Assembly (NCBI GenBank): GCA_007695175.1
Contig: REEH01000134.1
Coordinates: 1 to 51,142 of the forward strand
Direction of reading: 5' to 3'
DNA from: Spirochaetaceae bacterium
GTDB taxonomy: Bacteria; Spirochaetota; Spirochaetia; DSM-27196; Alkalispirochaetaceae
DNA length: 51,142 nt
Made by a program: the position numbers and the translations under genes
In this document: in pieces, positions 43,713 to 47,963 of the stretch
Numbering within the stretch: position 1 is the stretch's first letter
Layout of the letters: every line of letters starts with the position of its first letter
The notes under the pieces: model-generated
Databases searched by the model: none
Told to the model about the DNA's origin: nothing
What the model saw: only the letters and a program-made list of their open reading frames with translations

Positions 43713-44472
43713 CGCTGCACACCACCTTGCCGCTCGGTTCATCCCCTTCCGCTTCCTCATCATAAGCCTGGTCCAGATCCATGACATCAAAGGTATCCAG
43801 CACCCGGAAACCCGTTTCGCCCAGGAGCTCCTCGATCTCATCCACCTCCCGCGGACGCTGTCGGTGTACTTCCGTTCCGTCCGCGAAGATGAAGGTGGTG
43901 GTCACCAGCGGAGGCGGACCGGGCTCATAGGAAAGCGTCTCCCGAAACTGCCGCCCCCCGATAAGGTGGGGCTGCTCCATTCCGTCGCGCCGCTCGTACA
44001 TCAGGGCCGTATTAAAGTCGAGAAGGAACAATCCCTCCGGGAAGAGTCTCCCCCGGACGGCACGAAAGAACTCGCGGATCCGCTCCGTTTCCAGGAGGTA
44101 GTTCAGCGAGTCGTACACGCACGTCACCAGGTCAAAGGGGCCGGAGAAGGGGAAATGTCCGGCCAGATCACCCTCGGCGAGCAACGCTTCCGGCACGCGC
44201 TCCCGCGCCCGGGCGAGCATGGCCGCGGAGCAGTCAAACCCGGCCAGCCGGCGGCCCTCGGGAGAAGGCACGCTCTCCTCACCGCTGAGAAGTCGCAGGA
44301 GCAGGCCCGTGCCGCAGGCGGCATCGCAGACGCGCCGGAAGGGACGCTCCCGCTCTTCTTCCAGTTCCGCTACCAGGGAAGCGATGTATTCGCTGTATTC
44401 AAACCATCCGCCGTCGTAGACGGAAGCGAGCAGATCATAGGGCCTGGTCACGGGCCACCGCAATGAAGGCAT
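43699..44472 (-). CDS. Class I SAM-dependent methyltransferase
   Basis: 257 residues. The SAM motif [11 protein letters not shown], motif [12 protein letters not shown] and post-motif [11 protein letters not shown] are clear. The substrate is unknown; the YDLLASVYD opening is common in bacterial small-molecule methyltransferases. The ATG at 44472 lies inside kbl; a GTG at 44451 is an alternative start. It overlaps kbl by 38 bp and is probably the last gene of the tdh-kbl transcript. Confidence 0.85.
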
Positions 44473-45649
44473 CCGCCGCGCGATCCACCTGCTCCGTGGT
44501 ATGAGCCGCCGAGAGCTGCACCCTGATGCGGGCCTTTCCCCGGGGTACCACGGGGAAGGCGAACCCGATCACGTACACACCCCGTTCCAGGAGCCGTTCC
44601 GCCATCTCGAGCGCCTGCACCTCGTCGTACACCATGACCGGGACGATGGCCGTCTCGCCGGGCAGAAGATCCAGACCTTCCGCGGAGAGCCTTTCCCGGA
44701 AGCGGCGCGCCAGCTCCAGGGGACGGCGGCACCGTTCGGGCTCCTCCTCCACGATCTGCAGCGCCCGGAGCGTGCCACCCGCAACAGCCGGTGCCAGGGT
44801 GTTGGAAAAGAGGTACGGCCGTGACCGTTGCCGCAGCATTTCCACGATCTCCCTCCTCCCGCCGACGCAGCCGCCGGACGCTCCCCCCAGAGCCTTCCCG
44901 AAGGTGGTGGTGATGATGTCGATCTTTCCCTGCAGACCGAAGTGCTCCGCCGTACCGCGCCCGGTGGGTCCGAGATAACCCGTAGCGTGGCAATCGTCCA
45001 CCATCACCAGGGCGTCGTACTTCCGCGCGAGCTCGACTATGCCCGGGAGGGGTGCGATATCTCCATCCATGGAGAAGACACCGTCCGTGGCGATCAGGCG
45101 ATACCGGCTGCCGGCGTCCCGGGCGGCACGCAGTTGCGTCTCCAGGTCCGTCAGGTCCGCGTGAGCGTACCGGTAGCGCTGGGCCTTGCAGAGACGCACC
45201 CCGTCTATGATGGAAGCGTGGTTGAGAGCATCCGAGATGATGGCGTCCCGCTCGTCCAGAAGCGGCTCAAAGACGCCCCCGTTGGCGTCAAAGGCCGCGG
45301 CGTAGAGAATCGCCTCCTCCGTCCCCAGAAAAGCGCTCATGCGGGACTCCAGTTCCCTGTGCAGCTCACTGGTGCCGCAGATGAAACGCACCGAGGCATA
45401 CCCGAAGCCGAACCGCTCCATCGCCTGCGACGCCGCCCGGATAACTCCCGGGTGATTCGCCAGGCCAAGGTAGTTGTTGGCACAGAAGTTGACCACCTCC
45501 CGGATCGTTCCGTCCGCGAGACGGGTGTGGATCACCGCGTCCTGCGGACCGGTCAGAATCCGCTCCCTCTTGAAAAGCCCCCGGGAGCGCAGCTCCTCGA
45601 GAGTCCCGGCAAGATCCCCTGTAAGGTTACTGCTGGTCGTTCCATCCAT
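44435..45649 (-). CDS. kbl: Glycine C-acetyltransferase (2-amino-3-ketobutyrate CoA ligase)
   Basis: PLP enzyme that splits 2-amino-3-ketobutyrate with CoA into glycine and acetyl-CoA. The start was set at 45649, where GGAGG lies 9 nt upstream; an ATG at 45658 sits too close to it. The 404 residues carry the PLP lysine Lys252 in [24 protein letters not shown], and the NYLGLANHP opening. It overlaps tdh by 23 bp; the two enzymes form the threonine-to-glycine route. Confidence 0.94.
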
Positions 45650-46607
45650 ACCGTGCATCCTCCAGTCGCCGCGAGAGCACCCGCAGCATGTCACGGGTCA
45701 TCGTATCAAGATCGTGGGCCGGTTCCCACCCCCACTCTACCCGGGCGGCATAATCCTCAAGGTTGTTGGGCCAGGAGTTTGCGATAGCCTGACGAACGGG
45801 ATCCACGTGATAGTCGATCTCGAACTCCGGAATGTACTTGCGGATATACGCCGCCTGCTCCTCGGGACAGAAACTCATGGAGCTCACGTTGAAGGCATTG
45901 CGGTGACGCAACCGGGAGGGATCAGCCTCCATAAGATCAATCGCCGCCCGGACCGCGTCGGGCATGTACATCATGTCCAGATAGGTGTCGCCCTTGAGAA
46001 AGCATCGGTAGCGCCCCTGCCGCACCGCCTGATAATAGATATCCACCGCGTAGTCCGTCGTGCCGCCGCCCGGTGGTGTGAGGCTGGAGATGAGACCGGG
46101 ATACCGCACACCGCGCGTATCCACGCCAAACTTGTGATAGTAGTAATCACACAGGAGTTCCCCCGCCACCTTGGTGACGCCGTACATCGAGGTGGGGCGC
46201 TGCAGCGTATCCTGCGGAGTCCAGTCGCGGGGGGTGGTCGGTCCAAAAGCGCCGATCGAGCTCGGCGTGAAAACGCTGCACCCCTCCACCCGGGCAACCT
46301 CGAGCACCGTCGTAAGACCGTTCATGTTGAGATCCCAGGCGGCCTGCGGGTCCCGCTCCGCCGTTGCCGAAAGGAGAGCCGCCAGGTGGTACACCGTGTC
46401 GATCCGGTGTTTCCGGACGATCTCGGTAAGCCGGACACCGTCCCGTATATCAAACTGGTAGAAGGGACCCTCCGCGATCAGGTCTGCATTGACATCGCCG
46501 CGGATATCCGTGAGAACCACCTTCTCCGCACCGTGACGGCGTCGCAGTTCCGCCGCGATCTCGCTCCCCAGCTGACCCAACGCTCCGGTAATCAGTATCT
46601 GTCTCAT
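45627..46607 (-). CDS. tdh: SDR-type L-threonine 3-dehydrogenase
   Basis: NAD-dependent oxidation of L-threonine to 2-amino-3-ketobutyrate. This is the GalE-like short-chain form, not the zinc medium-chain Tdh of E. coli: 326 residues, TGALGQLG (Gly8, Gly11, Gly14) for NAD, and the catalytic Tyr142/Lys146 in MYGVTK. GAGGA precedes the ATG, and the ATG overlaps the stop of the 29-codon leader ORF (ATGA). kbl follows with overlap. Family assignment rests on the kbl partner as well as motifs. Confidence 0.88.
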
Positions 46608-46693
46608 TCCGTTCCGTCCTCAGCAATTCTAAATGTGAAAGTCGGAACGACTTCCGCATTTAGAATTGCACCCCAATCTTCCGTGGTATGCAT
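46604..46693 (-). CDS. 29-codon leader ORF coupled to tdh
   Basis: ATG at 46693 with GAGGAG 9 nt upstream, 29 codons, and TGA overlapping the tdh start as ATGA. The peptide begins MHTTEDWGAILN and ends IAEDGTE; 5 of 29 residues are Thr, matching the tdh substrate, but they are scattered rather than in a run. It holds the 22-bp hairpin described separately. The DNA is more A+T-rich than its neighbours, with AGA and CTA codons. It is either a regulatory leader peptide or a real small protein; the sequence alone cannot decide. Confidence 0.65.
   Translation of the reverse strand: MHTTEDWGAILNAEVVPTFTFRIAEDGTE
46623..46669 (-). promoter_or_regulatory. Long hairpin inside leader ORF before tdh
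   Basis: A perfect 13-bp outer stem (46623-46635 with 46657-46669) continues with a T-G and a G-C pair, one A-C mismatch, and a 6-bp inner stem (46639-46644 with 46648-46653), loop GAA. It ends 1 nt from the tdh Shine-Dalgarno (46617-46621) and lies fully within the 29-codon ORF. No T-run follows, so it is not a classic terminator. Confidence 0.8.
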
Positions 46694-46729
46694 GGCTTTG
46701 CTCCTCGATATGGCGTGTTCTCGTTTCCC

Positions 46730-46758
46730 TTGACATGCCCCGGGAATGACAATACAAT
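46730..46758 (+). promoter_or_regulatory. Promoter of XRE-cupin regulator gene
   Basis: TTGACA (46730-46735), 17 bp, TACAAT (46753-46758): 11 of 12 consensus bases with ideal spacing. The expected +1 near 46765 is inside the palindromic operator. Confidence 0.85.
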
Positions 46759-46781
46759 ATAATGAACTTTCGTTCAATATA
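46758..46781. promoter_or_regulatory. Palindromic operator between facing promoters
   Basis: TATAATGAAC (46758-46767), TTTC, GTTCAATATA (46772-46781): 9 of 10 positions symmetric. It lies directly downstream of the -10 of both promoters and covers both start points, the ideal site for a dimeric repressor such as the adjacent XRE-cupin protein. Confidence 0.75.
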
Positions 46782-46810
46782 GTGTACTTCACTGAGGGGA
46801 CGATTGTCAA
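46781..46810 (-). promoter_or_regulatory. Promoter of leader ORF-tdh-kbl
   Basis: On the minus strand, TTGACA (46810-46805), 18 bp, TACACT (46786-46781). The expected +1 near 46774 lies in the operator, giving an ~80-nt leader before the 29-codon ORF. A weaker alternative, TTGAAC-17-TATTGT (46777-46749), lies inside. Confidence 0.7.
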
Positions 46811-46837: not shown

Positions 46838-47440
46838 ATGAGTGCAACACCCCATTCTCAGCCCCCATCTCAACCGCCGCTGATAGGCTCAAACATACGG
46901 GAGATCCGGAAGCAGGGCGGGCTCACCCTGGATGTCCTGGCGGAGCGGAGCGGTGTCTCCAAGGCGATGCTCTCCCAGATTGAAGCGGAAAAAGTGAATC
47001 CCACGGTTGCTACAGTCTGGAAGATCGCCCAGGGGCTCGGAGTGGAGATCAATCGCCTTCTCCAGGGGGGGAGCGATGCGGTCCGCAAGTTCCATGTCAC
47101 CACCCGGGACGATATCGTGGCCCTGGATACGGATGAAGAAGGCCTGCACATCAGCGTTCTCACACCGTTTCAGCTGGTGGAGGATCTGGAAATGTACCTT
47201 CTTACCTTCGCCGAGGGAGGCGCACTCCGCTCGAGAGCGCATTTTCCCCGGACCGAGGAGTTTCTGACGGTTATACGGGGGTCAATCCGCGTACGCGCCG
47301 GGGACCGGGACGCAACACTTGGCGAGGGCGACTTTATCCGCTACCAGTGCGACGTCGATCACGACATCGAGAACGTCGCACCGGGGGAATCGCTGGTGCA
47401 CATGGTGGTGCGCTTTCACAAGCGCTCGCTCGCGCAATAG
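46838..47440 (+). CDS. XRE-family regulator with C-terminal cupin
   Basis: 200 residues. The N-terminal helix-turn-helix (LTLDVLAERSGVSKAMLSQI, res ~29-48, then EKVNPTVATVWKIAQGLGV) binds DNA; the C-terminal cupin_2 barrel (~115-195, EEFLTVIRGSIRVRAGD and GDFIRYQCDVDH) senses a small ligand. GAGG lies before the ATG. Regulators of this type often control amino-acid or amine catabolism next door and their own gene; here the neighbour is tdh-kbl, so threonine, glycine or a product is a reasonable ligand guess. Confidence 0.9.
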   Translation: MSATPHSQPPSQPPLIGSNIREIRKQGGLTLDVLAERSGVSKAMLSQIEAEKVNPTVATVWKIAQGLGVEINRLLQGGSDAVRKFHVTTRDDIVALDTDEEGLHISVLTPFQLVEDLEMYLLTFAEGGALRSRAHFPRTEEFLTVIRGSIRVRAGDRDATLGEGDFIRYQCDVDHDIENVAPGESLVHMVVRFHKRSLAQ

Positions 47441-47519: not shown

Positions 47520-47963
47520 ATGCTCAAAGAAACATTGACCACGGATCTGGTAACCACCGATCTTCCGGGAGCCGATAAGGACCAGATAATTCGTGCCCTG
47601 ATGGACCTGATCTGCAAGTCCGGTAAAGTCAAAGATCCCGAGCTGGCCCTGGATGATGTACTCGCCCATGAGACGGGGATGTCCACCGGTATGGAACACG
47701 GCATCGCGATACCCCACGCCAAGTCCGACGCCGTGGACGAGCTCGTTGCCTGCGTCGGAATCAGCAAGCGAAAGATAGATTTCGAGAGCCTCGACAGGAA
47801 GCCGGCCCAGATCTTCGTCATGACCCTCTCACCCCGGGACGGTACCGGCCCGCACGTACAGTTTCTCGCCGAGATCAGCCGCCTCCTGAAAGAGCCGAAG
47901 CTCCGCAGGAAGCTACTCAAAGCCAAGACGGAGGAGGAACTGCTCTCTCTCCTGACGAAATAG
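47520..47963 (+). CDS. Stand-alone PTS EIIA, PtsN (Ntr) type
   Basis: 147 residues. The phospho-acceptor His66 lies in GIAIPHAKSDAV, preceded by ETGMSTGMEHG, as in EIIA-Ntr/fructose-type domains. The start was chosen at 47520 because family members begin about 65 residues before this His; the longer frame upstream shows no conservation. It is probably a regulatory phosphocarrier, since no sugar permease is nearby. It is a paralogue of the EIIA domain on the Kef antiporter (TGMQHGVAIPHGR there). Confidence 0.88.
   Translation: MLKETLTTDLVTTDLPGADKDQIIRALMDLICKSGKVKDPELALDDVLAHETGMSTGMEHGIAIPHAKSDAVDELVACVGISKRKIDFESLDRKPAQIFVMTLSPRDGTGPHVQFLAEISRLLKEPKLRRKLLKAKTEEELLSLLTK

Follow-up and report, generated by a model that had tools for sequence, protein, structure and literature searches.

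How would a regulator gene and the threonine-degradation operon beside it be controlled when their promoters point toward each other across the region that separates them? This question is raised by a locus in a 3.7-Mb draft genome of a Spirochaetaceae bacterium, which we analyzed within a 51,142-nucleotide stretch of contig REEH01000134.1 (hereafter, the window). This genome shares its genus with one that identical sequence at loci L010 and L061 assigns to Alkalispirochaeta alkalica (Spirochaetota, Spirochaetales). The initial annotation had read two facing sigma-70-like promoters and one shared palindromic operator there, and had proposed a bistable or tightly reciprocal switch. We therefore consider in turn the promoters and candidate operator sites of the window, their recurrence at related loci, the protein likely to use them, and the regulatory logic that they suggest.

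A regulator gene and tdh-kbl with facing promoters

The gene context given by the initial annotation, an XRE-cupin regulator next to a threonine-degradation operon, was correct (Table 1). The regulator combines an N-terminal XRE helix-turn-helix with a C-terminal cupin domain, and PDB 1y9q is nearest to it both by sequence and by fold, the structure model being of moderate confidence (pLDDT 76, pTM 0.51). An assignment to PuuR was rejected because the score against the NCBIfam PuuR model, 46.9 bits, lies far under the cut-off of 211. On the operon side, kbl is identified by TIGR01822, and its true start probably lies some codons inside the annotated frame. No curated model reaches its cut-off for the dehydrogenase encoded by tdh, and the name threonine 3-dehydrogenase therefore rests on linkage to kbl. 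Directly downstream of the regulator, at 47520-47963 in the window, lies a gene for a PTS IIA protein (fructose/PtsN-like), an arrangement found in some, not all, same-genus relatives.

Table 1 Coordinates of the features at the regulator/tdh-kbl locus, numbered from the first nucleotide of the window
Feature	Position	Strand	Details
XRE-cupin regulator	46838-47440	+	Pfam HTH_3 2.9e-15, Cupin_2 6.5e-8, both above cut-offs
tdh, SDR-family dehydrogenase, probable L-threonine 3-dehydrogenase	45627-46607	-	Name inferred from kbl linkage
kbl, glycine C-acetyltransferase (2-amino-3-ketobutyrate CoA ligase)	44435-45694	-	TIGR01822, 600 bits against a cut-off of 493
Regulator promoter	46730-46758	+	-35 TTGACA 46730-46735, 17-bp spacer, -10 TACAAT 46753-46758; 11/12 matches
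tdh-kbl promoter	46810-46781	-	-35 TTGACA 46810-46805, 18-bp spacer, -10 TACACT 46786-46781; 10/12 matches
Putative operator site 1, ATACAATATAATGAAC	46752-46767		2 mismatches to GTTCANTATANTGAAC; over -10 of regulator promoter
Putative operator site 2, GTTCAATATAGTGTAC	46772-46787		1 mismatch to GTTCANTATANTGAAC; over -10 of tdh promoter
24-bp palindrome of the initial annotation	46758-46781		Inner arms of both operator sites plus 4-bp spacer
Mobile two-hairpin repeat, truncated copy	46621-46722		102 bp, in tdh leader between promoters and tdh start codon

The two sigma-70-like promoters lie exactly where they had been reported, and shuffles of the region contained 0.4 such promoters on average, against the 2 observed. 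With each start placed 7 nt past the -10 element, transcription is predicted to begin at ~46765 from the regulator promoter and at ~46774 from the tdh promoter. These points are ~9 bp apart, in line with the ~10 bp proposed before, and fall within one polymerase footprint; the two divergent transcripts would overlap by ~10 nt. The overlap of the promoters supports the view, already put forward in the initial annotation, that RNA polymerase would be unable to use both at the same moment.

Putative operator sites over both -10 elements

The symmetry reported for this region proved unremarkable when taken at face value. In the 24-bp palindrome described as near-perfect, with its axis at 46769.5, 9 of 12 positions are paired, a score that 60 axes in the window reach or surpass; in the 81-bp block described as almost symmetric, 20 of 40 are paired, which about 150 axes in the window equal or exceed. 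Both descriptions were rejected, symmetry of this degree being common in the window. On this single sequence the palindrome is weak, and the case for its reality rests on comparison across loci.

The consensus drawn from that comparison, GTTCANTATANTGAAC, matches two putative 16-bp operator sites in the window, one over each -10 element, with 4 bp between them and their centres 20 bp apart. The earlier proposal that one operator would block both promoters thus holds in part: a conserved region does cover both promoters, but it would consist of two 16-bp sites and not of one 24-bp palindrome. Both sites carry at most 1 mismatch to a relaxed pattern, GTTCANTATANTGNAC. Elsewhere in the genome, a single match was found at this threshold, and a wider regulon was rejected because that match is intragenic. 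With up to 2 mismatches, the pattern gave 31 matches over both strands of the genome versus 7 for a reversed control. At the level of sequence motif, a palindromic site in the adjacent intergenic region, with few copies per genome, is what is seen with XRE-cupin repressors.

The tdh leader also holds a truncated copy of a mobile repeat. In its full form the element measures ~144 bp and contains two hairpins; the genome contains it at >20 sites, frequently at contig ends, and four longer copies have two hairpins and near-identical flanking duplications of 8-9 bp, as read by eye. The window copy ends 7 bp before the -35 element of the regulator promoter and sets a hairpin with a 22-bp stem ~15 bp upstream of the tdh start codon. 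The possibility that the leader forms a structured RNA was considered and rejected, as the strong hairpin belongs to the mobile repeat and an Rfam search of the leader returned nothing at E up to 1. The repeat was absent from the intergenic regions of relatives that we compared and is outside the conserved switch.

Recurrence of operator and facing layout across lineages

A search of 61 genomes yielded close orthologues of the regulator, and a collection scan returned 80 loci, which belong to Spirochaetota, Lentisphaerota, and a few other groups. Where regulator orthologues had enough flanking sequence, tdh was divergent in almost all cases, and in most loci examined the regulator adjoined its presumed metabolic target as a conserved pair. 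The relatives repeat one layout: TTGACA, 17 bases, a TATAAT-like element, GAAC/GTTC arms, a reversed TATAAT-like element, 17 bases, and TGTCAA. Of 61 distinct loci with a divergent regulator/tdh pair, 49 have face-to-face promoters, defined by a gap of 8-32 bp between the -10 elements, compared with 1 of 3050 dinucleotide shuffles of the intergenic regions; the other 12 loci failed the test, some of them through one weak or divergent promoter. The 16-bp operator, with up to 2 mismatches to GTTCANTATANTGAAC, was found in 53 of the same 61 loci versus 3 of the 3050 shuffles, and as the consensus was derived from the very loci in which it was counted, these numbers show consistency across lineages, not independent prediction.

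Alignment on the best site in 48 non-redundant loci gave an information content of 1.0-2.0 bits at fourteen operator positions and mostly below 0.4 bits in the flanks. In 52 of 65 loci, the best site is accompanied by a second, weaker one at a distance of 19-21 bp, compared with 9 of 260 for control offsets; the count is inflated by Sphaerochaeta, in which the second-site matches overlap the tdh -35 element and are therefore partly promoter sequence. The initial annotation had named a lack of palindrome conservation among relatives with this gene pair as one observation that would refute it; operator and geometry were both conserved. Promoters, operator sites, and spacing are thus repeated features of these sequences, in which regulator, operator, and tdh are also associated. 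Because distant spirochaetes share this layout, a repressor-controlled switch of the classical kind is very probably real.

The operator range extends to Lentisphaerota. At six loci of this phylum (L095, L099, L100, L103, L125, and L129), the regulator adjoins a kbl-like gene with operator-like sites between the two, and no tdh match was found in the stretch examined. One genome has two regulator copies that face away from each other, one of which immediately precedes tdh-kbl in the same orientation (L175); a regulator locus of this genome (L094) has the operator and face-to-face promoters. The same regulator/tdh layout also occurs on a contig labelled Gaiellales (Actinomycetota; L081), which points to a mislabelled bin or a transfer. 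In Sphaerochaeta halotolerans (G071), the operator-like sequence GTTCACTATCTTGAAC is located in an intergenic region upstream of a gene apparently encoding aspartate-semialdehyde dehydrogenase (L186; C28:152967-152982), and may represent an extension of the regulon to threonine biosynthesis, or chance.

The adjacent regulator as the probable user of the operator

Four lines of evidence suggest that the operator sites belong to the adjacent XRE-cupin regulator, the first being the near absence of further close matches to the motif in the genome of the window. In four genomes (G062, G063, G065, and G066), regulator and tdh are unlinked. There, operator-like sites (1 to 3 mismatches in the best site) remain at tdh together with a promoter directed toward it, and no facing promoter was seen in the former geometry; the unlinked regulators fall into two separate clades and have no operator at their own promoter. 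At three other loci (L130, L134, and L038), the recognition helix of the regulator, SKAMLSQIE, is replaced by TRAMLEQIE or TLNMLGQIE. No GTTCANTATANTGAAC operator was found at these three loci, and their promoters still face each other despite its loss. Since L130 groups with L134 in a single clade and L038 belongs to the same genus group, this covariation of helix and operator counts as about one event. Furthermore, among 27 genomes without a close regulator match, tdh is absent in 24 and stands beside a distant homologue of the regulator in the other 3, although many of the 27 are incomplete, so that single absences are weak evidence. In one of the 3 genomes with a distant homologue, the intergenic region contains three good operator copies.

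Binding of the sites by the adjacent regulator is itself inferred, and they could in principle serve another protein, with the XRE-cupin gene a mere neighbour. We hold this to be very improbable, given that the motif is almost confined to this locus in the genome, that it vanishes where the recognition helix has changed, and that regulator and tdh co-occur across genomes.

A predicted co-repression switch and its alternatives

We consider it likely that a locally acting, autoregulated XRE-cupin repressor controls threonine degradation through these sites. In the mechanism that we propose, regulator dimers would bind the two 16-bp palindromes, which lie about two helical turns apart, and the bound repressor, placed over both -10 elements, would exclude RNA polymerase from both promoters. 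The regulator would thereby limit its own synthesis and silence tdh-kbl at the same time, one repressor controlling both directions. A metabolite of the pathway, such as threonine, glycine, 2-amino-3-ketobutyrate, aminoacetone, or a similar compound, would probably release the repressor by occupying its cupin domain. After release, polymerases would be expected to compete because the promoters overlap: both could not be occupied at once, and the choice made by polymerase would determine how strongly the enzyme genes are transcribed relative to the regulator.

An operator placed over the -10 elements is consistent with repression. The same position, typical of repression at both sites, weighs against a scheme in which the XRE-cupin protein, together with its ligand, activates tdh-kbl while repressing itself, and the Pseudomonas members of the family that have been studied are all inhibitors (PMC7901475). 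Paired sites could let the ligand-bound protein take one site and so favour the other promoter, and site 2 is indeed closer to the consensus than site 1, but we judge activation to be improbable. The bistable or tightly reciprocal switch of the initial annotation, with promoters that exclude each other and hold alternative states, found no support and seems to us very unlikely, even though the overlapping promoters would not admit two polymerases at once and the facing geometry is conserved. A double-negative switch of the cI/cro type has mutually opposing regulators on both sides, whereas the tdh side here encodes two enzymes; with a regulator in just one of the two divergent units, the expected outcome is negative autoregulation and co-repression. 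Modelling of the scbA-scbR system showed that interference between convergent promoters is not bistable on its own and that full-length antisense RNA pairing is needed (PMC3134472), a poor match to the RNA overlap predicted here. Moreover, genomes with unlinked genes keep the tdh regulation sites without a facing promoter.

Co-repression by the XRE-cupin protein can be combined with either of two views of the facing layout itself. The layout could be a functionless consequence of fitting two repressor-covered -10 elements within a short operator region, a reading that is compatible with the repressor model and concerns solely whether polymerase competition matters. We give it nearly even chances. 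The facing promoter is absent once the genes are unlinked while operator-like sites stay with tdh, and the distance separating the -10 elements ranges from 10 to 31 bp across loci, so that no exact interference geometry is kept; on the other side, a genus without a recognisable operator (f8) keeps its face-to-face promoters. Alternatively, the overlap may have been selected as a ratio-setting device, with polymerase competition tying the regulator to the supply of enzyme, which we regard as doubtful. Under such selection, the overlap would have persisted throughout Spirochaetia and been lost once the genes separated, a history that we put forward tentatively.

Comparison with known regulatory systems

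In E. coli, argECBH and bioABFCD are divergent genes whose facing promoters lie across a shared operator region, with one repressor for both directions. The locus described here resembles them in having facing promoters of divergent genes across a shared operator region. It differs in that ArgR and BirA are encoded elsewhere, whereas the regulator here is one of the divergent genes, and in that two spaced 16-bp palindromes are found in place of the ARG boxes or the bio operator. Face-to-face promoters that are co-repressed by regulators also occur on plasmid RA3 (orf02p/orf02prev), but in the setting of plasmid stability and replication modules and under the global regulators KorC and KorB (PMC9455977). 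The scbA-scbR pair of Streptomyces coelicolor likewise joins a regulator to a divergent gene through convergent promoters repressed by the encoded regulator; its transcripts overlap by 53 bp and its bistability was modelled as antisense-driven, in contrast to the ~10 nt predicted at our locus (PMC3134472).

With regard to the type of regulator, XRE-cupin proteins of Pseudomonas (ErfA, PsdR, PauR, and others) are local repressors of neighbouring metabolic genes, their binding sites are palindromic where determined, and repression by polymerase exclusion has been proposed for them (PMC7901475). The predicted repressor shares with these proteins and with E. coli PuuR the XRE and cupin domains, the position beside a metabolic target, the palindromic site, and the restriction to one or few targets; autoregulation has been inferred in some of them. 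Its differences lie in the target, a threonine-degradation operon in Spirochaetota and kbl-type neighbours in Lentisphaerota, in the operator GTTCANTATANTGAAC, which is peculiar to this regulator, and in repression being a prediction here. Burkholderia xenovorans MgxR (Bxe_B3018), which was studied as linked to threonine/glycine degradation, is comparable in lying near tdh and kbl and in having a palindromic operator, but it belongs to the TetR family, has methylglyoxal as its effector, and uses another operator sequence, which is also present at its own promoter (PMC4349456).

Our literature search found no description of an XRE-cupin-type regulator of tdh-kbl. Architecture and regulator type are of known kinds, and the regulator and operator of the tdh-kbl operon appear to be undescribed. 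Of most interest are how deeply the layout is conserved and how it depends on linkage. Together, the comparisons predict a regulator of threonine degradation, with its operator and its target, for spirochaetes and some Lentisphaerota. They also provide a natural comparison set for the old question of whether face-to-face promoters are selected for, comprising many linked loci with the geometry preserved, unlinked loci without an opposing promoter, and one clade that has the geometry but no recognisable operator.
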